Source: an uncultured Flavobacteriaceae bacterium
Lineage (GTDB): Bacteria; Bacteroidota; Bacteroidia; Flavobacteriales; Flavobacteriaceae
Assembly (NCBI GenBank): GCA_947493535.1
Contig: CANLRK010000001.1
Location: 124,001 to 188,000 of the forward strand
DNA: 64,000 nucleotides
Direction of reading: 5' to 3'
Shown: one piece after another, positions 31,313 through 41,903 of the stretch
How the letters are laid out: each line of letters begins with the position of its first letter
Position numbering within the stretch: position 1 is the stretch's first letter
Translations under genes and position numbers: made by a program
The notes under the pieces: generated by a model
Told to the model about the DNA's origin: nothing
The model's input: only the letters and a program-made list of their open reading frames with translations
Databases searched by the model: none

Positions 31313-31330
31313 TAACATTCCCTTAATATT
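31313..31330 (+). promoter_or_regulatory. Direct repeat TAACATT/TAATATT at 11-bp spacing (Pho-box-like)
   Basis: TAACATT at 31313 and TAATATT at 31324, 11 bases apart, upstream of the TonB receptor gene. It also lies just upstream of the divergent dgt start. Spacing of one helical turn resembles PhoB-type boxes. Confidence 0.4.
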
Positions 31331-31354
31331 CAGGCAAATTCTTTTACATAACTA

Positions 31355-31383
31355 TAACATAAACGTCACAAAGCATTAACTAC
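31355..31383 (+). promoter_or_regulatory. Three 11-bp-phased TAACA-type repeats before the TonB receptor gene
   Basis: TAACATA (31355), TCACAAA (31366) and TAACTAC (31377) follow each other at exactly 11 bases. A near-consensus -7 element TAACTTTT is at 31396-31403, 19 bases after the last unit. Confidence 0.45.
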
Positions 31384-31433
31384 TATGTTTTGCTATAACT
31401 TTTCCTTTGCAAAAAAAATAACTCTGACAAAAA

Positions 31434-34211
31434 ATGAAAAAAATCTTATTATTAATCTGCTTATTTTCAAGTGTTGTATTTGCGCAAGATAAAGCCCAAA
31501 TATCGGGAAAAGTTTTGGATGGCGAAATGAACAACGAACCTTTATTAGGAGCTACTGTTGTTATTAAAGGAACTACTACCGGAGCACAAACAGATTTTGA
31601 TGGAAACTACACTTTAGAAGTTACTCCAGGAAACTACACTTTAGAGTTTAGTTTTGTAGGATACAATACCACTCAAGAAGAAGTTACGCTTGTTGTTGGC
31701 GAAAACAAGCAACTTGACATAATACTTAAAGCAAATTCTTTAGACCAAATTATTATTGTTGCAGAAACCAACAAAGAAAAAGAAAGCGCTTTATTATTAG
31801 AGCAAAAAAAAGCTGTAGAAATAAAACAGCAAATTGGAGCGCAAGAAATGGCTAAAAAAGGAGTTTCTGATGTTGCCGCTGCAGTTACAAAAGCTTCAGG
31901 TATTTCTAAACAAGAAGGTTCTAGTGATGTTTTTGTAAGAGGTTTGGGCGACCGTTACAACTCTACAACTTTAAATGGACTACCAGTACCTTCAAACAAA
32001 CCATCACAAAAAAATATTGCTTTAGATATTTTTTCAACCGATATCGTTGAATTTTTAGATATCAACAAAATATACAACAATAGTATTTATGGTGACTTTG
32101 GTGGAGCTAATGTAAATATTGTATCAAAAGACCATAAAGGCAAAGGGTTTTTACAAGTAGGTTATGGTACTGGTTATAATGCTAACGCTATTACAGTAAA
32201 TAATTTTTACTTACAGGATGGACCAAACTACTCTGGATTCTACTCAAGTGAGTATCCTAGCAATCCTTTAAACTCATATAACTTTACTACCAGTTTCGAT
32301 GCAGAAACAAAATCGCCTTTTAATCAAGGATTTTCAATTACTGGAGGAACAAAATTTGATTTAGCCAATGATAAAAGGCTGAGCATTTTCGCTACAGCCT
32401 CTTTCTCTAACGGATTTAAATTCCAAGAAGGTTTTACAAGAGGAAACATTAGTGCTGATGGTGTTGCATTTTCAGATTACGATTACGAAGCGTTTGCTTA
32501 TGAAACCAATGCTACAGCAATGGCTAACTTGGCTTACAAAGCAAATAATAACAATACTATAAAGTTTAACTCATTATTTGTTAATTCAACCTCACAAGAA
32601 TTAAAAAACTATTCTGGTGTAATTAATATTTTTGACAACGCTGAAAATGGTGGAGGTTTTATTCGTCGATCTACATTTAACAGAACCAAGTTATTTGTAA
32701 ATCAATTATTGGGTGAACACAAATTTAATGATAGAATTAACTTAGACTGGGGCTTAGGTTATAACGTAGTAAATAACAGTACTCCAGATAGAAGACAAGC
32801 TATGTTAGTACCAACCGATAATAACAACCCACTTACATCACCTAAACAAGTTTCTGACCTTTCTGATTCAAACAGCCATAGATATTTTGAAGAACTTAAC
32901 GAAGAAGAGTTTGCAATAAACGCAATAAGTAGCTATAACTTTGCTAAAACAGCAGATGAGGATTTTAAAGGTAAAATTACTTTAGGGTACAGCGGACGCT
33001 TTAAAAAAGTAGGTCTAGAAGCAACTCAATTTAACTTTAAAGTTAACAGACTTGTATTACAACCACATGTTGACCCTAATAATTTAGACGCATATTTTAA
33101 TCAACAAAATTTAGACGCAGGTTATTTTAGCATTAAAACATTTAGAGGTGGACTTGATTTTGCTGATGCATTAAAACCTCAAACCTATGATGGTATACAA
33201 GTAATTAATGCCTTTCATGGAAACGTACAATATAACTTTACCGATAAATTTACAGCAATAGTAGGTTTACGTACCGAACATATCCAGCAAGATATAAAAT
33301 GGGATACTTCTTATGCGTCTCCAGACATAAACTACTTCAATACATTTGAAATAATGCCTAATTTATCTTTAAAATACCAGGTTAATGACAAACAAAACTT
33401 AAAGTTTGCTACAAGTAAATCATACACCTTACCACAATTTAAAGAACGTGCGCCATTTTTATTTGAAGAAGTTGAAGGCTCAAAATTTGGTAACCCACAT
33501 TTATATGCTTCAACTAACTATAACGCTGACCTACGTTGGGAATTGTTTCCTAAATCAGGAGAAGTTATCTCTGCTACTGGTTTTGGTAAGTTAATCCAGA
33601 ATCCAATTAACGAAACTATTGTAGCTTCTGCTACTAACGATATTTCTTGGGTTAACTCTGGTAAACAAGCCGTAGTTTACGGAATTGAATTAGAAGTACG
33701 TAAAAATATTTTTGATTATAAAAAATCTAATGATGATGTAAGCCTAGACAATAAATTATCAGCTGGTTTTAACGGTGCATTTATGACCTCAAACCAAGAT
33801 TTTGATGAAGATAAAGTGCGTAGAGAAACTGATTTAAATGTACTATTCACTAACGAAGAAGGAAAACTAACTGGAGCGTCTGATATAATATTAAACGCTG
33901 ATGTTAGTTACTTTAAAGAATTTAGCAAAAAAGGAAACTTATTAGCTACTGTAGCTGCCAACTATTTTTCTGAGCGTATTTACGCTATTGGAGCCAATAC
34001 AAAAGGTAATATTATGGACGAAGGTTTCTTTACACTTGATTTTATTGCTAAAGCAAAGTTAAGTAAACGTTTAAATGCAGGTCTTTCTATTAAAAACATT
34101 CTTAATCCTGAAGTAAAAAGATATCAAGATAACGAAAAAGGAAAAGTTGCCATGAAAGGCTTCAAAAAAGGAATGTCTGCAGGAATATCATTAAAATATG
34201 ATTTATTTTAA
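31434..34211 (+). CDS. TonB-dependent outer-membrane receptor
   Basis: 925 residues with a signal peptide (LLLICLFSSVVFAQ). A CarboxypepD-regulatory-like beta-sandwich is at about 22-105 (GTTTGAQTDFDGNYTLE), a plug domain with VFVRGLGDRYNSTTLNG is at about 165-235, and a 22-strand barrel ends in YDLF with the usual C-terminal Phe. The plug resembles receptors of the phosphate-starvation type rather than SusC. It is followed by a surface-lipoprotein-like gene. The 11-bp repeats upstream and the nearby porin and PiT genes suggest a role in uptake of phosphate or organic phosphate; that is an inference. Iron or another ligand cannot be excluded. Confidence 0.88.
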   Translation: MKKILLLICLFSSVVFAQDKAQISGKVLDGEMNNEPLLGATVVIKGTTTGAQTDFDGNYTLEVTPGNYTLEFSFVGYNTTQEEVTLVVGENKQLDIILKANSLDQIIIVAETNKEKESALLLEQKKAVEIKQQIGAQEMAKKGVSDVAAAVTKASGISKQEGSSDVFVRGLGDRYNSTTLNGLPVPSNKPSQKNIALDIFSTDIVEFLDINKIYNNSIYGDFGGANVNIVSKDHKGKGFLQVGYGTGYNANAITVNNFYLQDGPNYSGFYSSEYPSNPLNSYNFTTSFDAETKSPFNQGFSITGGTKFDLANDKRLSIFATASFSNGFKFQEGFTRGNISADGVAFSDYDYEAFAYETNATAMANLAYKANNNNTIKFNSLFVNSTSQELKNYSGVINIFDNAENGGGFIRRSTFNRTKLFVNQLLGEHKFNDRINLDWGLGYNVVNNSTPDRRQAMLVPTDNNNPLTSPKQVSDLSDSNSHRYFEELNEEEFAINAISSYNFAKTADEDFKGKITLGYSGRFKKVGLEATQFNFKVNRLVLQPHVDPNNLDAYFNQQNLDAGYFSIKTFRGGLDFADALKPQTYDGIQVINAFHGNVQYNFTDKFTAIVGLRTEHIQQDIKWDTSYASPDINYFNTFEIMPNLSLKYQVNDKQNLKFATSKSYTLPQFKERAPFLFEEVEGSKFGNPHLYASTNYNADLRWELFPKSGEVISATGFGKLIQNPINETIVASATNDISWVNSGKQAVVYGIELEVRKNIFDYKKSNDDVSLDNKLSAGFNGAFMTSNQDFDEDKVRRETDLNVLFTNEEGKLTGASDIILNADVSYFKEFSKKGNLLATVAANYFSERIYAIGANTKGNIMDEGFFTLDFIAKAKLSKRLNAGLSIKNILNPEVKRYQDNEKGKVAMKGFKKGMSAGISLKYDLF

Positions 34212-34239
34212 TTCTGAAAATAAATTCTATTCATAGTAT

Positions 34240-34266
34240 AAAGGCTAACAGTGTATGTTAGCCTTT
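34240..34266 (+). terminator. Stem-loop after the TonB receptor gene
   Basis: An 11-bp perfect stem AAAGGCTAACA/TGTTAGCCTTT with a 5-base loop, followed by GTTACG rather than a T run. Possibly a weak terminator or mRNA-stabilising hairpin. Confidence 0.6.
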
Positions 34267-34422
34267 GTTACGTAATATAGATCATAAAAAAACATGTTTA
34301 CTTTTAATTAACATTACCTACTAATACTTAACAAATGATTCATATTTAGGTAATGCAAACAACAAGCATTGTTTATTTATTTGCAGTGTAATTAATAACC
34401 AAAACAACTAAAAAGAAAAACA

Positions 34423-35571
34423 ATGAAAAAATCATTTTTATTATTAGCAATTGCAGCCACAGCTATTTTTTCTAGCTGTTCACTTGATGACCCAAATACT
34501 GAGTCACAAAACAACAATGGTTTTGTTGCTAATCCTGACAATTTAAAAGGTGATATCAATAACGGAACCGTTACTTTAAACCCTGCTTTAACATATAACT
34601 TAACAGGTAAATTACAAGTAAACGATGGTGCTACCTTAGTGATTCCTGCAGGAACAAGAATTGAAGCTTCAGGAGGAACACAATCATACATAGCTGTAGC
34701 ACAAGGAGCAACAATTAATGTACTAGGTACTTCAACAGACCCTGTTGTAATGACATCAGCAAACGCTAACCCAGCACCAGGTGATTGGGGTGGTTTGGTA
34801 ATTTGTGGACAAGCTCCAACAAACAAAGGAGGTTCTAATGGTGAAACTGCAACTGCAGAGGTTTCTGATTTAACTTATGGAGGTGCTATTACAAACGATA
34901 GTTCAGGATCTATCAGATATTTAAGAGTTGAATATACAGGGGCGAACTTTAGTGCTACTAAAGAGTTCAATGGTGTGTCACTATTTGGTGTAGGTTCAGG
35001 AACTACTTTTGAATATGTACAATCTTACCAAGGAAGTGATGATGGTATTGAATTTTTTGGAGGAACTGTAGATGGGAAATACTTAGTTTCTACCGCTAGT
35101 GGCGATGACTCAATTGACTTTGCAGACGGATGGTCTGGTACTGGACAATACTGGTACATAAACCAAGGGACTAAAGCTGGTATTGAAGGTTCAAACAACG
35201 GTGATAACGGATATGCTACACCTACAACAACTGCTACTTTAAAAGATATTTCTATTGTAGACACAGGTTCTGAAGGGGCATTATATATTAAAGAAGGTGG
35301 TGGACACTGGACCGCTTCTAACATCTTTATCTCTGGTTTTGAGTTAGGAATTAAAATTAAAGATGCAGCTACTGATCCTGCAGCTAATGCTAATATTGAC
35401 AACGGAGACATTACTTTTAACAATATTCAGTTTAGTGCAAGTGTTACAACTAAAAGTCAGTATGCAGGAGCTAATAACACTTATTTAGTGGAAGGCACCA
35501 ACCAAGGTGCTGGTAACGGTGCGTCTGCTCCAGCATGGACAAACGGATGGACTGTAGGTTTAGCGCAATAA
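34423..35571 (+). CDS. Lipoprotein with repetitive beta (possible beta-helix) structure, unknown
   Basis: 382 residues with a lipoprotein signal (FSSC, Cys19), followed by an Asp/Asn-rich stretch (SLDDPNTESQNNNG) that could serve as a surface-export signal. The rest is rich in Gly, Thr, Asn and Asp with short strands (GDWGGLVICGQAP, GTTFEYVQSYQGSDDGIEFFGG, GEGALYIKEGGGH-like runs), as in right-handed parallel beta-helices. I do not recognise an enzyme motif. It sits 211 bases after the TonB receptor in the same direction and may be its surface partner, like SusD with SusC, though it has no SusD-type helical repeats. A weaker TAACATT motif lies upstream at 34309. Confidence 0.7.
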   Translation: MKKSFLLLAIAATAIFSSCSLDDPNTESQNNNGFVANPDNLKGDINNGTVTLNPALTYNLTGKLQVNDGATLVIPAGTRIEASGGTQSYIAVAQGATINVLGTSTDPVVMTSANANPAPGDWGGLVICGQAPTNKGGSNGETATAEVSDLTYGGAITNDSSGSIRYLRVEYTGANFSATKEFNGVSLFGVGSGTTFEYVQSYQGSDDGIEFFGGTVDGKYLVSTASGDDSIDFADGWSGTGQYWYINQGTKAGIEGSNNGDNGYATPTTTATLKDISIVDTGSEGALYIKEGGGHWTASNIFISGFELGIKIKDAATDPAANANIDNGDITFNNIQFSASVTTKSQYAGANNTYLVEGTNQGAGNGASAPAWTNGWTVGLAQ

Positions 35572-35591
35572 CTTAAACATTTAAAGCATGT

Positions 35592-35622
35592 AAAAAGGGA
35601 ACTTAATGTTCCCTTTTTTAAA
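35592..35622 (+). terminator. Terminator after the lipoprotein gene
   Basis: AAAAAGGGAAC (35592-35602) and GTTCCCTTTTT (35608-35618) form an 11-bp stem followed by T. Confidence 0.88.
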
Positions 35623-35755
35623 CAACTAAGACAGTTTGCAATAAGACGTTTATTTTAATTAAAACACAACTTAACACTATTAATTAGAGTTGTTTGTGTT
35701 TAAGCTAAAAGCAGTCTTATTATTTTTTGCAGAGTTCTTTGTTTTGCTTTTGGCG

Positions 35756-35787
35756 GGAAGAGTATAATTTTACTCTTCCTTTTTTTA
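35756..35787 (+). terminator. Second plus-strand terminator before the SulP gene end
   Basis: GGAAGAGTA (35756-35764) pairs with TACTCTTCC (35771-35779), followed by eight T residues in the plus direction. It would end a transcript coming from 35620-35755, where no gene is seen, or act as a second stop for the lipoprotein transcript. Confidence 0.65.
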
Positions 35788-37623
35788 TTCTACATTATTC
35801 TTCACCCATTTTAAGCAATCTTTAAAATCTTTAAACAAATGCTCTTTGGGAATAATATCTGGAATAATATCTATACGCTCTAACATGTATTTAGGTTGTT
35901 TTAATAAACCAACTAACAACACTTTTTTACCATTACCATTTCTTACTAAATCAATCAATACATCTTCCATAGCATACAGTCCTGATTGATCTATATACTG
36001 CATCCTTCCCAATCTTATAATTACTGTTGTAGCAGTTTCAGGAATTTGTTTAGCAAGTTCTTGAAATTCACTTGTTGATCCGAAAAACAATGGTCCTTTA
36101 ATATGTTTTATAAACACTTTATCTTCCAAGTTTTCAGGAAAATCTAATTCATCTGACCAACGTTTTTCTTTTTTCAATGGTTTTACATCGGAGCGTTCTG
36201 CGGTTAAATCACCAATTTTTTTCATAAACATCAACGAGGCTATAACCAACCCTATACCTACTGCATAAACTAAATTCCATATTGAAGATAGTATTAACAC
36301 CATTAGCATAATAGCAACTTCTGTACGTGGCATATGCGGTATTGCTTTTAATCCTTTATAATCCATAACACCAATACCTACAGTAATTAAAATTCCTGCT
36401 AATACTGCTGCTGGTATTTGTGATGCTATTGGACCAAGCGCTAGGAGTATTAATAACAATAAGATTCCTGCTATCATTCCTGATAATCTTGTTTTTCCTC
36501 CAGCATTAATATTTACAACTGTTCTAATAGTAGCACCTGCCCCAGGAATACCACCAAAAATTGCACCTATACTATTACCTATACCTTGACCTAACAATTC
36601 TTTATTAGGGTTATGTTTCGTTTTTGTCATATTATCAGCAACAACTGAGGTTAACAATGAATCTATTGCCCCTAAAAGAGCTAGCGTCAATGCCGTAAAA
36701 ACATACGGGGTAATTGTTTTAAGTTTGAAATTAGAGAATATTTCAAAGTTAGGTAATGGTAAACCACTAGGGATTTCTTCTATTGGTCTATAATTTAACC
36801 CTAAACCAACTGCTATACCAGACATAACTAATAGCGCTACTAAAGTACTAGGTATTTTAGTTGTAATTCTTTTAAAACCGTATATAATAATTATAGTTCC
36901 TAAAGCAAGTAATAACTCTAACCAATTAATATTTTTTAAAGCTCTTGGCAATACTTTTACAGCCCCTATAACTCCAGAGGCTTCTGAACCGGCTAGGGTT
37001 TTCGACTCTTTTAATATTTGCTCTTCTGTTATACGTTCTGCTCGTTTTATTGTTTCCTTAAAATCTTCTAAAACTAAAATTCCTTCGCCTGCTTCTTCTT
37101 TTAAAATATTATCTAAAATAATCTCTTCAGCAAATGGTTTAAACTGCTCAACATAAGTTGCATCTTCTTTTGGATAATACCCCAAAGAAGGTAGAATTTG
37201 CGTGATTAAAATGATAACTCCTATTGCCGTCATAAATCCTGAAACCACAGGATAAGGTATATATTTTATATATTTTCCTAAGCCTAAAAACCCTAATCCT
37301 ACTTGCATTAAACCTGCCAATAGAAAAACCGATAAAATGGATGGTAATGCTTTAGTAACATCGCCATCAAACGCAGCAACCATCCCTGCAATTACCACCA
37401 TACTTACGGCTGTCATTGGCGCCGTTGGCCCAGATATTTGCGTGTTAGTCCCCCCAAAAAGAGCTGCAAAAAAACTGATAAATATTGCCCCGTACAATCC
37501 AGCACTAGGCCCTAGCCCTGAGCTTACACCAAATGCTAATGCTAATGGTAATGCAACAATCCCAGCAGTTATTCCTCCAAATAAGTCACCTTTAAAATGT
37601 TTAAAATTGAATAAATTTTTCAT
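35785..37623 (-). CDS. SulP-family anion transporter with STAS domain
   Basis: 612 residues. The SulP membrane domain has about 14 spans; AGIVALPLALAFGVSSGLGP is the N-terminal signature and GGIPGAGATIRTVVNINAGGKTRLSG the second. A cytoplasmic STAS domain follows at about 485-605 (IRLGRMQYIDQSGLYAMEDV). A hydrophilic insert of about 75 residues rich in Glu and Lys (YYPKEDATYVEQ to ALKNINW) interrupts the membrane part. The substrate could be sulfate, bicarbonate or another anion. It lies in reverse orientation between phosphate-type genes, so a link with phosphate is not shown. Confidence 0.92.
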   Translation of the reverse strand: MKNLFNFKHFKGDLFGGITAGIVALPLALAFGVSSGLGPSAGLYGAIFISFFAALFGGTNTQISGPTAPMTAVSMVVIAGMVAAFDGDVTKALPSILSVFLLAGLMQVGLGFLGLGKYIKYIPYPVVSGFMTAIGVIILITQILPSLGYYPKEDATYVEQFKPFAEEIILDNILKEEAGEGILVLEDFKETIKRAERITEEQILKESKTLAGSEASGVIGAVKVLPRALKNINWLELLLALGTIIIIYGFKRITTKIPSTLVALLVMSGIAVGLGLNYRPIEEIPSGLPLPNFEIFSNFKLKTITPYVFTALTLALLGAIDSLLTSVVADNMTKTKHNPNKELLGQGIGNSIGAIFGGIPGAGATIRTVVNINAGGKTRLSGMIAGILLLLILLALGPIASQIPAAVLAGILITVGIGVMDYKGLKAIPHMPRTEVAIMLMVLILSSIWNLVYAVGIGLVIASLMFMKKIGDLTAERSDVKPLKKEKRWSDELDFPENLEDKVFIKHIKGPLFFGSTSEFQELAKQIPETATTVIIRLGRMQYIDQSGLYAMEDVLIDLVRNGNGKKVLLVGLLKQPKYMLERIDIIPDIIPKEHLFKDFKDCLKWVKNNVE

Positions 37624-37694
37624 TTCTATTTTATAGTTAGTTTTATTACACTTTTTTTCATTTAAAACAGAAAAAATTAGTGTATATGAATATA

Positions 37695-37702
37695 CAAATT
37701 TA
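37695..37702 (-). promoter_or_regulatory. -7 element for the SulP gene
   Basis: TAAATTTG on the minus strand, 71 bases before the ATG. No -33 TTG is seen at the expected distance. Confidence 0.45.
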
Positions 37703-37746
37703 ACAGGACACTTACTCCATAATTAATATTAAGTTGAGCACCTTAT

Positions 37747-37786
37747 AAAAAAAGCCGAATTACTATATAGTAATCCGGCTTTTTTT
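37747..37786 (-). terminator. Terminator of the MORN-like gene
   Basis: A 17-bp stem with one mismatch (AAAGCCGAATTACT region with its complement) and an AT-only loop; A and T runs on the flanks would let it work in either direction. It lies after the stop of the 117-residue gene. Confidence 0.8.
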
Positions 37787-37804
37787 ATAAGCGTAAAATC
37801 TTAC

Positions 37805-38158
37805 TTACTTGGTAACTGCTAACTGAGTTTTATTATTCCACTCATTAACTTTATCCAATCTAAAGTCTCTATAATCAACTTCTGTTAATTTATCAGCCGA
37901 CCAAAATAACCACTTTCCTGTTTTTTTTCCGTTTTCATAATTTCCTATGGATACTTTATTACCATTGTAATCATAACTTTTCCATGTTCCATGTAATTTC
38001 CCTTCAGCGTTAAAAAAACCTACTTGAGCTACCTCTCCATTGTCATGGAAATAAGTAACTTCATACATATCCCCTTTCTGAACTACTTCTGCATTTTTCT
38101 CTTGTGCAAACCCAAAAAAACCTATTACAAAAACCAATATAACTACTAAATTTTTCAT
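37805..38158 (-). CDS. Exported MORN-repeat-like protein
   Basis: 117 residues with a signal peptide (VVILVFVIGFFGFAQ), then short repeats of MORN/YwqK type: YFHDNGEVAQVGFFNAEGKLHG, and SYDYNGNKVSIGNYENGKKTG is the next, each ending in a turn with Gly. Such proteins are common in Flavobacteriaceae; the role is unknown. It is divergent from the porin gene. A -7-like element TATATTTG lies 45 bases upstream. Confidence 0.75.
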   Translation of the reverse strand: MKNLVVILVFVIGFFGFAQEKNAEVVQKGDMYEVTYFHDNGEVAQVGFFNAEGKLHGTWKSYDYNGNKVSIGNYENGKKTGKWLFWSADKLTEVDYRDFRLDKVNEWNNKTQLAVTK

Positions 38159-38202
38159 ACTTTCTATCTTTTAAATATATTCTTCTACATTATTGTATAT
38201 AA

Positions 38203-38210
38203 CAAATATA
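38203..38210 (-). promoter_or_regulatory. -7 element for the MORN-like gene
   Basis: TATATTTG on the minus strand, 45 bases before the ATG; no clear -33 element. Confidence 0.45.
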
Positions 38211-38241
38211 CACTTTTGTTTACATTTAAAAAATGTTTTGG

Positions 38242-38259
38242 TAACAATTTCTTAACATT
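38242..38259 (+). promoter_or_regulatory. Pho-box-like direct repeat before the OprO/P-type porin gene
   Basis: TAACAAT (38242) and TAACATT (38253), 11 bases apart. They occupy the place of a -33 element, ending ten bases before the -7 element TACTTTTG (38269-38276). No TTG -33 is present, as expected for an activator-dependent promoter. Confidence 0.5.
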
Positions 38260-38268
38260 AGAAATATT

Positions 38269-38276
38269 TACTTTTG
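38269..38276 (+). promoter_or_regulatory. -7 element of the porin promoter
   Basis: TACTTTTG, a full TAnnTTTG match, 24 bases before the ATG at 38301. Confidence 0.6.
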
Positions 38277-38300
38277 TGATGAAAAAACAAGAACATTATA

Positions 38301-39503
38301 ATGGGCTTAAAAAACTATTTAATTATAACCATTCTATTGACAGGAAACCCTTTATTAGCTCAAGAAATTATCAGTCCTAAGTTTGGAAAGGGATTATTTA
38401 ACTTAGTAGGAAAAGATAGTACTTGGACCATGAAAGTTGGCGCTAGAATGCAATTTTTAACAACAAACTCATGGGATATTAACGGAAATGGTGATTTTGA
38501 AAAGGCCGAAAGTAGTTTTCTGGTAAGACGAGCACGTTTAAAGTTTGGAGGATATGCGCTAAGCCCAAAACTGACTTATAAAATCGAGCTAGGCTTATCT
38601 AACCGTGATATGAGTGGTACTTCGCAATACACAAGTAATGCTCCTAGATACATTTTAGATGCCGTAGTGAAATGGAATTTTTATAAAAACTTTACCTTAT
38701 GGGCTGGACAAGCAAAATTACCTGGCAACCGTGAGCGTGTAATCTCATCGGGAAACATACAATTTGTTGATCGTTCAATATTGGACAAACATTTTAATAT
38801 TAACCGTGACATAGGCTTACAGTTAAGACATCATTTTAACTTATCGGAAAAATTTCTGATTAGAGATATGTTTTCAATTTCACAAGGAGAAGGTAGAAAT
38901 ATTACTATAGGAAACCTAGGCGGTCACCAATACACCGCTAGGGTAGAACTGCTTCCTTTTGGGAAATTTACAGAAAAAGGTGATTATATAGGAAGTGATA
39001 TTAAACGAGAACAAACCCCAAAACTTTCTTTTGCAGCTACTTACAATTTTAACGACAAAGCCGTAAAAACAAAAGGAAGCCAAGGAACCTATATGGAAAA
39101 CGACAGTAAAGAAGGTTTTTTTGAAACCAATATAAATACTATTTTTATAGATACCATGTTTAAATACAAAGGGGTTTCTTTTATGGGAGAATACGCTAAC
39201 AGAGATACTAATAGAGCCACAGCAATTAATACTGACGGAACTCCAACCGGAGATAGTGTACAAGAAGGAAGCTCCGTCAATTTACAAGCAGGATACCTAT
39301 GCAAATCAAACTGGGAAGTTGCCGGACGCTATACAACAGTTACTTTTAGCGGCAATGGCTATACAACAAATCAATACACCCTAGGTGTTTCAAAATACAT
39401 AGTTGGCCACAAATTAAAAGTACAATCTGATTTTAGCTACGAAACAATTGACAACAATACTAGCGGTTTACTATATAGATTACAGTTTGACATTCATTTT
39501 TAA
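38301..39503 (+). CDS. Phosphate-selective porin O/P-like outer-membrane protein
   Basis: 400 residues with a signal peptide (about 1-21, cleaved near LLAQE). The OprO/OprP-family start is present (KVGARMQFLTTNSWDINGNG, then SFLVRRARLKFGGYALSPKL) with a barrel ending in QFDIHF. OprP-type porins let inorganic phosphate or polyphosphate cross the outer membrane, but many Bacteroidota members are uncharacterised. The phosphate reading is strengthened by the PiT gene that follows in the same direction after 126 bases and by the shared 11-bp repeats in both promoters. Confidence 0.85.
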   Translation: MGLKNYLIITILLTGNPLLAQEIISPKFGKGLFNLVGKDSTWTMKVGARMQFLTTNSWDINGNGDFEKAESSFLVRRARLKFGGYALSPKLTYKIELGLSNRDMSGTSQYTSNAPRYILDAVVKWNFYKNFTLWAGQAKLPGNRERVISSGNIQFVDRSILDKHFNINRDIGLQLRHHFNLSEKFLIRDMFSISQGEGRNITIGNLGGHQYTARVELLPFGKFTEKGDYIGSDIKREQTPKLSFAATYNFNDKAVKTKGSQGTYMENDSKEGFFETNINTIFIDTMFKYKGVSFMGEYANRDTNRATAINTDGTPTGDSVQEGSSVNLQAGYLCKSNWEVAGRYTTVTFSGNGYTTNQYTLGVSKYIVGHKLKVQSDFSYETIDNNTSGLLYRLQFDIHF

Positions 39504-39549
39504 AAACAGTTTCCAATACCTTTTTATTAAAGCCTTTAAGAGTAATTGA

Positions 39550-39567
39550 TAACATTAGCTTAACATT
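39550..39567 (+). promoter_or_regulatory. Pho-box-like direct repeat before the PiT gene
   Basis: Two identical TAACATT units at 39550 and 39561, exactly 11 bases apart. A TAnnTTTG element (TAGTTTTG) follows at 39586-39593. Confidence 0.55.
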
Positions 39568-39585: not shown

Positions 39586-39593
39586 TAGTTTTG
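39586..39593 (+). promoter_or_regulatory. -7 element of the PiT promoter
   Basis: TAGTTTTG followed by GC, 36 bases before the ATG; the -33 place holds no TTG, and the repeat lies a little further upstream. Confidence 0.55.
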
Positions 39594-39629: not shown

Positions 39630-41903
39630 ATGGATAATATTTATCTTTTAATGGTTATAGCGCTAGGTATATTAGCCATAATCGATTTAGTGGTAGGAGT
39701 TAGCAATGATGCTGTTAACTTTTTAAATTCCGCAATAGGCTCTAAAGCTGTTTCGTTTAAAACCATTATGATAGTTGCCAGTATAGGTATTGCCTGTGGC
39801 GCCTTGTTTTCCAGCGGTATGATGGAAGTTGCTCGTAAAGGTATTTTTGTACCAGGAAACTTTATGTTTAGTGAAATCATGATTATTTTCATGGCGGTAA
39901 TGATTACCGATATCTTGCTTCTTGATGTGTTTAACACCTTAGGAATGCCAACATCTACTACAGTTTCTATTGTATTTAACTTACTAGGGGCGGCTGTATG
40001 TATTGCTTTACTAAAAATTAGTACTGATAACACTCAAAGCTATGCAGATATTTATCAATATATTAATACCGAAAAAGCCCAGCAAATTATAGGTGGTATT
40101 CTGCTTTCTGTTGTTGTTGCCTTTTCAGTAGGAGCCTTTGTTCAATATATCTCAAGAGTTCTATTATCATTCAACTTTGAAAAAAAACCTATATGGGTAG
40201 GTGCTTTATTTGGGGGTATTGCTTTAACAGCTTTAGTATACTTTATATTAATGAAAGGAATTAAAGGCGCTGATATTGCTAAGAAAAGTTTTGAAACAAT
40301 AGGCGGAATGACAATCAAAGAGTTCCTCGAAGCTTATGTATTTCAATTAGTTGCTGCTTTTTTTGCATTTTGGACAATATTCTCTTACATCTTTATAGGC
40401 TATTTTAAACAAAACATTTACAAACTTATCATTATAGTAGGTACCTTTTCATTAGCCTTAGCTTTTGCTGGTAATGATTTGGTTAACTTTATTGGTGTTC
40501 CTATTGCAGGCTGGCAAGCTTTTCAAGCTTTTGTTGATCCAATGATAAACGTTAATAACTTAGCTGCTTCAGAATTCCCAATGGGTATTTTAGGACAAAA
40601 AGTACCTACACCTACACTTTGGTTATTTTTAGCCAGTATTATTATGGTTACCACCTTATGGCTATCTTCAAAATCTAAAGAAGTATTAAAAACATCATTA
40701 GACTTATCGAGTCAGAGCGACACTAAAGAACGTTTCAGTCCTAACTTTTTATCTAGAGGTATTGTACGAGGATCTATATTATTATCACGCTATTTCTCTG
40801 CTATTACCCCTGAACCTTTAGCAAAAAAAATAGAGCAGCAATTTGAAAAACCTGTTATAACCTTAGCTAAAGACAAAACATACGAGCTCCCAGCTTTTGA
40901 TATGGTGAGAGCTTCTGTAAACTTAATGGTAGCAGGTATCTTAATATCTATAGCTACCTCATATAAATTACCGCTTTCAACTACTTATGTAACCTTTATG
41001 GTTGCCATGGGTACCTCTTTAGCCGATAGAGCTTGGGGAGCAGAAAGCGCTGTTTATAGAGTAGCTGGAGTATTAAATGTAATTGGAGGATGGTTCTTGA
41101 CAGCCATTAGCGCATTTATTGCCGCTGGAGTTGTAGCCTTTTTAATTTCATGGAATGTAAAGGTAATGGTTCCTGTACTATTATTGCTTACCGCTATTTT
41201 ATTAACTAAAAATATGATGGCGCATCGTAAAAAAGCAAAAGCCGTTAAAGAAGAAGATTCTATTAATAAAGCAGAAAGTAGCTCTATACAAGGAGTTATA
41301 GAAGAAAGCGCAGACAACATTAGAGCAGTAGTAAGTAGAACTTCAAAAATTTATGCTTCTACTATTGACAGTTTAGCAAAACAAAACTTAGATGGGTTAA
41401 AGAAAAGTAAAAAAGGAGTTGTCAAACTAAATACTGAGGTTGAAGACTTAAAAGACAACATTTTCTACTTTATAAAAAACTTAGATGAGTCAAGTGTTGG
41501 TGCAAGTGATTTTTATATTAATGTTATTGGATACTTACAAGACATCACACAATCTTTAGAGTATATCACCAAAGCAAGTCATAAGCACGTAAACAATAAC
41601 CATCTTAAATTACGTTTTAATCAAATTAAAGATCTTAAAGAAACCGAACAACAACTATATACCTTGTTCGGAAAAATAAAAAGTACTTTTTCTGAAAGAG
41701 ACTTTGACCATATAAGTGTTATCCTTGACGAAAAACAAGCATTATTACTTCAAGTAAACGAAAAGATTAAAAAGCAAGTTTCCAGAACACGTACTGAGGA
41801 GAAGAGTCCTAAAAACACAACGCTTTACTTTAGCTTGTTATTAGAAACTAAAGATTTGATAAAAGCAACAATGAGTTTATTAGAAGCTTATAAAGAGCAA
41901 TAG
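39630..41903 (+). CDS. PiT-family phosphate permease fused to a PhoU-like domain
   Basis: 757 residues, against about 420-530 for most PiT carriers. The membrane part carries the duplicated PiT signature: GVSNDAVNFLNSAIGSKAV near the N-terminus and AFAGNDLVNFIGVPIAGWQA in the middle. PLSTTYVTFMVAMGTSLADR comes before the last spans. Residues from about 545 to 757 are a cytoplasmic helical domain (EESADNIRAVVSRTSKIYAS, EVEDLKDNIFYFIKNLDES) that resembles PhoU/DUF47 proteins, normally separate partners of PiT. The fusion probably gates the carrier, which is an inference. It is transcribed alone, with a candidate Pho box upstream and a strong terminator downstream. Confidence 0.9.
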   Translation: MDNIYLLMVIALGILAIIDLVVGVSNDAVNFLNSAIGSKAVSFKTIMIVASIGIACGALFSSGMMEVARKGIFVPGNFMFSEIMIIFMAVMITDILLLDVFNTLGMPTSTTVSIVFNLLGAAVCIALLKISTDNTQSYADIYQYINTEKAQQIIGGILLSVVVAFSVGAFVQYISRVLLSFNFEKKPIWVGALFGGIALTALVYFILMKGIKGADIAKKSFETIGGMTIKEFLEAYVFQLVAAFFAFWTIFSYIFIGYFKQNIYKLIIIVGTFSLALAFAGNDLVNFIGVPIAGWQAFQAFVDPMINVNNLAASEFPMGILGQKVPTPTLWLFLASIIMVTTLWLSSKSKEVLKTSLDLSSQSDTKERFSPNFLSRGIVRGSILLSRYFSAITPEPLAKKIEQQFEKPVITLAKDKTYELPAFDMVRASVNLMVAGILISIATSYKLPLSTTYVTFMVAMGTSLADRAWGAESAVYRVAGVLNVIGGWFLTAISAFIAAGVVAFLISWNVKVMVPVLLLLTAILLTKNMMAHRKKAKAVKEEDSINKAESSSIQGVIEESADNIRAVVSRTSKIYASTIDSLAKQNLDGLKKSKKGVVKLNTEVEDLKDNIFYFIKNLDESSVGASDFYINVIGYLQDITQSLEYITKASHKHVNNNHLKLRFNQIKDLKETEQQLYTLFGKIKSTFSERDFDHISVILDEKQALLLQVNEKIKKQVSRTRTEEKSPKNTTLYFSLLLETKDLIKATMSLLEAYKEQ

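Follow-up and report, generated by a model that had tools for sequence, protein, structure and literature searches.

The PhoP box of Bacillus subtilis consists of TTAACA repeats at steps of about 11 bp, the cyanobacterial box is CTTAACCT, and in Escherichia coli the upstream promoter element is replaced by the Pho box. The E. coli box has the motif CTGTCAT and its units are bound by PhoB head-to-tail (PMC4415409). Within the phylum Bacteroidota, two accounts deal with PhoB. In Bacteroides fragilis, pst and a phosphate permease are under PhoB control: the pstC promoter is bound by PhoB, and pstSCAB depends on PhoB, as do BF0375, a porin O gene, and BF3715, which encodes the permease. BF3715 has a value of -52 in the phoB mutant at low Pi and shows no Pi response in the wild type (PMC3547664). 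In Flavobacterium johnsoniae, Pi depletion induces a TonB-dependent receptor (TBDT) and an F-type lipoprotein that are encoded next to phoBR, Fjoh_0545 and Fjoh_0546 being up by log2 8.0 and 9.9 and PhoB itself by log2 3.06 (PMC8115612, Table 1), and the OprP gene Fjoh_0542 shows no induction. The accessible parts of both accounts gave no box sequence, and the main text of PMC8115612 uses none of the terms Pho box, promoter and motif. Nor was a sequence for a Bacteroidota Pho box found in the literature searched, which was seen in part and consisted largely of papers outside subscription.

Here, we analyzed a stretch of 64,000 nucleotides (the window) from an uncultured Flavobacteriaceae bacterium together with related genomes of the family. 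In relatives, units of the TAACAT type, spaced by 11 bp, are kept upstream of the genes of a PiT-type phosphate transporter, a porin, a TBDT and phoB, and their distances to the -7 promoter element follow a fixed lattice. On the strength of this sequence comparison, we are confident that the repeats are Pho boxes, the operators of a PhoB-type response regulator whose gene is 43 kb away from that of the TBDT.

In the window, a check of the sequences upstream of the TBDT, porin and PiT genes found each group of units spaced at 11-bp steps. All units listed by the first-pass annotation were present where it had placed them, and the TonB receptor, OprO/P-type porin and PiT transporter that it had proposed downstream were borne out by Pfam domains. 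The TBDT gene (31434-34211, + strand; PF13715, PF07715, PF00593) is preceded by two groups on the + strand. The distal pair (31313-31330), TAACATT at 31313 and TAATATT at 31324, lies 93 and 82 nt before a TTTG at 31406. The proximal array (31344-31383) has four slots, TTACATA at 31344, TAACATA at 31355, TCACAAA at 31366 and TAACTAC at 31377, which are 62, 51, 40 and 29 nt before the same TTTG; the unit at 31344 is additional to those listed before, and those at 31366 and 31377 are poor matches. This TTTG (31406-31409, + strand) is the probable -7 element, being a weak match to TAnnTTTG, and the choice is uncertain as a second candidate TTTG occurs at 31389. The porin box TAACAAT-N4-TAACATT (38242-38259, + strand; units at 38242 and 38253) is found 31 and 20 nt before TTTG 38273, which belongs to the -7 element TACTTTTG (38269-38276, + strand), and is followed by the Porin_O_P outer-membrane porin gene (38301-39503, + strand; E 3e-14). 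Finally, the PiT box TAACATT-N4-TAACATT (39550-39567, + strand; units at 39550 and 39561) stands 40 and 29 nt before TTTG 39590 of the -7 element TAGTTTTG (39586-39593, + strand), upstream of the PiT gene (39630-41903, + strand; PHO4/PiT, E 2e-26).

Between the TBDT and porin genes lie a SulP transporter gene at 35785 (- strand) and a gene for a small MORN protein (37805-38158, - strand), which diverges from the porin gene, so that the porin box is also located about 83 bp upstream, in inverted orientation, of the MORN gene starting at 38158. Downstream of the TBDT, a lipoprotein-like protein without Pfam match is encoded (34423-35571, + strand), whose relatives adjoin TBDT and phoB in other genomes; its place in the gene order resembles that of the F. 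johnsoniae lipoprotein FII. Upstream of it, a weak repeat (34297-34314, + strand) matches the pattern with two mismatches and is absent among the window matches scoring at least 8 with the matrix described below. Counterparts of this repeat and of the 31313/31324 pair exist in genome G053 of the same genus (L124, positions 3863 and 903; scores 9.2 and 9.7).

Counting repeats within the window does not reveal the motif. Loose repeat patterns were not enriched in the window (34 matches vs. 38.6 in shuffled sequence, and 22 vs. 22.1) nor in the bacterium's own genome (95 vs. 125 with the pattern reversed, and 68 vs. 111); consequently, counts alone are uninformative in such an AT-rich window. We scored sites with a matrix built on 28 of 30 orthologous PiT sites; since these had been selected by their TAAC words, the invariance of TAAC in the matrix is partly given by construction. 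One locus, L059, whose shorter flank led to gene-internal sequence being read, was counted as a miss in this set and left out of the matrix, which likewise contains no TBDT, porin or phoB sites and none of 76 further PiT promoters. When every 11-bp site of the window is scored on either strand, the PiT box comes first with 20.0 and the porin box second with 16.1, and the 31313/31324 pair (site 31312) ranks fifth with a score of 10.8. Periods of 8, 13 and 14 bp each yield one window score of at least 16 as well. Thus the window alone is no proof, and the case rests on conservation in relatives. The chance frequency of the loose patterns and the single high scores at other periods are what might be expected if the boxes were merely accidental TAAC pairs in AT-rich DNA. 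However, position, period and phase of the repeats are conserved across many genomes, which makes such an accident extremely improbable. For PiT, conservation already argues against it; the sites 31313/31324 and 38242/38253, taken alone, could still be weak. With a strict pattern, 60 whole genomes gave 43 matches, hardly above the 39 of the reversed control, and 15 of the 43 stood no more than 60 bp in front of PiT and three no more than about 85 bp in front of phoB. The strict motif is thus concentrated at PiT and phoB and uncommon elsewhere.

PiT orthologs were detected in 117 of 120 genomes of the family, and 91 of these 117 carry an 11-bp repeat with the consensus ATAACMWTWASRTAACATW before the gene. 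This figure combines three sets with slightly different scores (28/30, 52/76, and 11/11 from other loci). In the first set, a period-11 repeat occurred within 200 bp upstream of PiT in 28 of 30 loci; controls gave 4-17 at other periods, 9/30 in reversed sequence at period 11, and 0 in the gene interior. The 28 sites have the consensus A-TAAC-M-W-T-W-A-S-R-TAAC-A-T-W. In the second set, 52 of 76 genomes reached at least 12 bits at period 11, compared to 1-7 at other periods, and in 49 of these 52 a TTTG starts exactly 22 nt after the box. The box is missing in the remaining 24 promoters of this set, and 22 of these genomes have PhoB. Genomes G020 and G100 show neither a PhoB match nor a PiT box. 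With only two of the 24 box-less genomes lacking a PhoB match, the link between the box and the presence of PhoB is weak. For 11 box-less genomes the porin upstream region was retrieved, and a repeat of at least 9 bits was present there in nine of them, in G028 far upstream; G027 and G050 have none. Since PiT closely follows the porin or pst genes in several box-less genomes, it may share their promoter there.

The same box was found before other genes of the phosphate cluster. Across 20 clusters that combine TBDT, lipoprotein, porin and PiT genes, a box of at least 12 bits stood near the gene start of 22/30 TBDT or TBDT-like ORFs, 5/19 lipoproteins and 10/20 porins, but of none of the 117 other genes in these clusters; other periods gave 0-4. 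All PiT genes of these clusters were boxed (20/20), a figure that is partly circular, as their sites feed the matrix. If only matches below E 1e-30 are counted, PF12849 (pstS) directly follows the porin in 8 of the 12 genomes with a match, including the same-genus G053. No clear pstS was detected in the bacterium's own genome, where the best PF12849 match has an E value of 2e-4; given the gene order of G053, the pst genes may have been lost.

The genome of the bacterium encodes three Trans_reg_C proteins, two of which carry a receiver, judged from their translations. One of them is the PhoB-type regulator mentioned above (G000:C1:111432-112115), encoded beside a PhoR-like kinase, and 118 of the 120 family genomes have an ortholog of this PhoB, with E 1e-60 or better. 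Within 300 bp upstream of phoB, 27 of 30 loci (L204-L233) contain a box of at least 12 bits, compared to 0-3 at other periods. All 27 are inverted, 23 of them located 91-109 bp and four 149-185 bp before the phoB match; a sense-oriented box is present as well in 8 of the 30 loci. The motif TAT[CA]TTTAC (TATCTTTAC) follows the end of the box in 21 of 30 loci, mostly after 37-38 nt. The inverted orientation of the phoB boxes is not accounted for by a model of activation through PhoB; they may act on phoB or on the gene that diverges from it. In one locus (L457, genus g111), the genes are arranged in the order glycosyltransferase (PF04101), Porin_O_P, PhoR, PhoB, TBDT and lipoprotein, which equals the order Fjoh_0541-0546 of F. 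johnsoniae. Its TBDT box is weak (10.1); L458, L459 and L460 score 19.9, 23.4 and 19.7.

Eleven-bp direct repeats are common to several members of the OmpR/PhoB family such as WalR and CpxR. The boxes might hence be the operator of another family member, e.g., of the RprY-like regulator at L063. The DNA-binding domain of the regulator indeed resembles many members, with an OmpR-family regulator matching best (9e-22), followed by VicR (4e-18), YycF (1e-16) and E. coli PhoB (4.5e-16), and another kinase-like ORF, in Flavobacterium sp. SLB02, has beside it a triple repeat of TAAC type that differs from the box. However, only two Trans_reg_C proteins of the genome have a receiver, and the second, that of L063, lacks a box scoring at least 10 in the one locus concerned. 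Moreover, 27 of 30 phoB genes do have the box, and the targets are phosphate genes. We thus consider control by another regulator improbable and favor PhoB. The PhoB-type regulon that the first-pass annotation had proposed gains support from the orthologous promoters (PiT 91/117, TBDT 22/30, porin 10/20, phoB 27/30), and the motif is far more common in relatives before these four kinds of genes than before other genes (0/117).

The placement of the units relative to the -7 element follows a simple rule. Upstream of TBDT genes, pairs of TAAC words are separated by 11 bp (38 pairs), 33 bp (36), 44 bp (29) and 22 bp (10), and at most six pairs were found at any other separation from 5 to 60 bp; upstream of 153 other genes, only 1-3 pairs occur at separations of 11, 33, 44 or 22 bp. 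Distances from TAAC to TTTG[CT] are mainly 40 (79) and 29 (76) for PiT, 29 (29), 62 (25), 73 (25) and 40 (9) for TBDT, and 18 (27), 40 (12) and 29 (8) for porins. Hence the distances are mostly 18, 29, 40, 62 or 73 nt before the -7 TTTG, all of which equal 7 modulo 11. This holds for 157/219 distances at PiT, 92/116 at TBDT and 49/68 at porin genes, compared to 7/49 at other genes; these counts include related sequences and are therefore not independent. The 76 PiT promoters outside the matrix gave 106 of 153 distances of this kind. In the window, the PiT box (40/29) falls on the lattice, as does the proximal TBDT array if TTTG 31406 is taken as -7 element; with TTTG 31389 it does not. The porin pair (31/20) and the distal TBDT pair (93/82) deviate by 2 bp. 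The variable distance to the -7 element had initially been noted as a weakness of the Pho box proposal. As the distances differ by whole 11-bp steps in orthologs, this variability now counts as support.

A fixed phase to the -7 element in AT-rich sequence would also fit a mere component of promoter architecture, such as an extended -33 region or a site for a nucleoid protein, which requires no phosphate-specific regulator. However, none of the 117 neighboring genes carries the box, the arrays extend to 73 nt upstream, and inverted units recur at phoB. Such an architectural role is accordingly very unlikely, if slightly less so than chance. Under the favored Pho box reading, the repeats before phosphate-uptake genes are very probably docking sites at which PhoB activates these genes under phosphate starvation. 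PhoR would phosphorylate PhoB under phosphate limitation, PhoB would then bind the units head-to-tail over the place of the -33 element, and the bound protein would recruit RNA polymerase to the Bacteroidota -7 promoter. PiT would be served by the slots at 29 and 40, TBDT by the slot at 29 plus a second pair at 62/73, and the porin mainly by the slot at 18.

Not all phosphate genes seem to be part of this scheme. An enrichment had been predicted before phosphatase genes; this was not found for genes of the PhoX type (PF05787), of which 0/30 loci have a box within 1500 nt upstream, the operon starts not being known. This counts against the Pho box reading, since PhoX of F. johnsoniae (Fjoh_2478) is up by log2 12.5 on Pi depletion (PMC8115612), and so do the missing induction of Fjoh_0542 and the missing Pi response of BF3715. 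PhoX would then be induced indirectly or by a different route. Beyond the family, a sample of the phylum yielded PiT matches in 35 of 247 genomes. Family loci of this sample have a period-11 repeat of at least 9 bits in 11/12 cases, four being genomes already counted, and outside the family 5/16 PiT loci have one, compared to 0-3/16 at other periods, which is weak. Flavobacterium sp. SLB02, used as the Flavobacterium genome for the pattern scan, gave nine strict matches, as many as the reversed control (nine). Three outer-membrane receptor-type genes have four of these matches upstream and a PhoU_div-PitA pair has one; another is near a MORN gene, and the last three fall in or beside unrelated ORFs. 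In both matches with a clear -7 element the distance is 28 rather than 29. Two further observations were made in SLB02. Its MORN gene, comparable to the MORN gene at 37805-38158 of the window, also has inverted boxes upstream (L348). In addition, a triple 11-bp TAACCC-type repeat is located at 2465555-2465583 (L344/L345) before an outer-membrane receptor-type gene, with a divergent sensor-kinase-like ORF alongside, and is perhaps the operator of another two-component system.

The porin upstream regions of relatives hold a further feature. In L128 and L138, for instance, the stretch between about 330 and 60 bp before the porin holds a unit that is non-coding, has box units of its own and ends in a terminator. 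We consider it fairly likely that in much of the family a small RNA, located between the MORN gene and porin/PiT, is likewise driven by the PhoB lattice. Its segment UAUUAGUUUUUGUCG would pair with the start of the porin mRNA (CGACAAAAACUAAUA), so that PhoB would switch on both the porin and the RNA. In 40 of 50 porin upstream regions, GTTTTTGT occurs together with the leader motif G[AG]CAAA[AG]A, 90-260 nt further on; neither the RNA nor the leader motif was found in the 10 remaining regions, among them those of the window and of G053. The segment TATTAGTTTTTGTCG of the candidate RNA is complementary to CGACAAAAACTAATA of the porin leader. Since the search that defines the 40/50 required the 8-letter cores, pairing within the cores is given by construction and only flanking positions can test it. 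The position next to the core pairs in 35 of 40 cases. Extension positions 1-5 pair in 38, 38, 37, 33 and 31 of 40, compared to 36.1, 36.2, 37.1, 22.8 and 31.4 expected if both sides were independent. Only position 4 clearly exceeds independence and thus carries the covariation (A-T 25, T-A 6, C-G 2). Duplexes with the own leader have an energy of -21.3 kcal/mol vs. -19.1 kcal/mol with swapped leaders (0/5000 permutations, genome relatedness left in), and -8.8 with shuffled leaders. With longer stretches, the means were -20.6 for porin, -15.7 for TBDT, -11.5 for PiT and -13.0 for other genes, the best of which reached -26.6; given this overlap, the energy alone does not prove the porin to be the target. 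A site for protein binding may also be present at both the small RNA and the porin leader.

In the 19 of 40 small RNAs that have a TTTG[CT] in the stretch searched, half-site scores peak at 29, 40, 51 and 18 nt, which is the same lattice. A structure alignment supports the terminator stem by compensatory pairs and resolved no upper stem, and Rfam returned no match over the small RNA at E values up to 1 in the three loci searched. G105 and G092 retain the RNA with no porin next to it, and in G062 it precedes a different Porin_O_P gene with the same leader; the leader motif is missing at distal porins of six genomes. No Flavobacteria small RNA combining porin, phosphate and PhoB was among the literature matches listed, sources being seen in part. 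Some observations stand apart. Further matches to the small RNA occur in L480 and L488, and in the porin locus of G106 (L090) the complementarity between small RNA and leader extends into the -7 region, as if copied. A Flavo-1 RNA (RF01705; 46.9 bits vs. a gathering score of 42) is located at L138:13951-14098 (- strand) in the PiT-cluster stretch of G054.

Taken together, the repeats would supply a phylum with a known PhoB with a Pho box that is defined by a matrix and can be tested. They would also give a geometric rule for activator placement on Bacteroidota promoters, with units at 7 modulo 11 from the TTTG of the -7 element. With this lattice rule, predicting regulons in Flavobacteriaceae would become practical, and the box lattice points to a candidate phosphate-starvation small RNA. 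Like the Pho box of E. coli, the proposed box comprises two 11-nt direct repeats, each with seven well conserved and four less conserved bases. However, its unit is TAACAT instead of TGTCAT, it is anchored to the Bacteroidota -7 TTTG, and the TBDT arrays contain pairs 33 bp apart. With the PhoP box of B. subtilis and the cyanobacterial box it shares nearly the same core, TTAACA, and the same period, while it differs from both in phylum, in promoter type and in its lattice, mostly 18, 29, 40, 62 or 73 nt from the TTTG.
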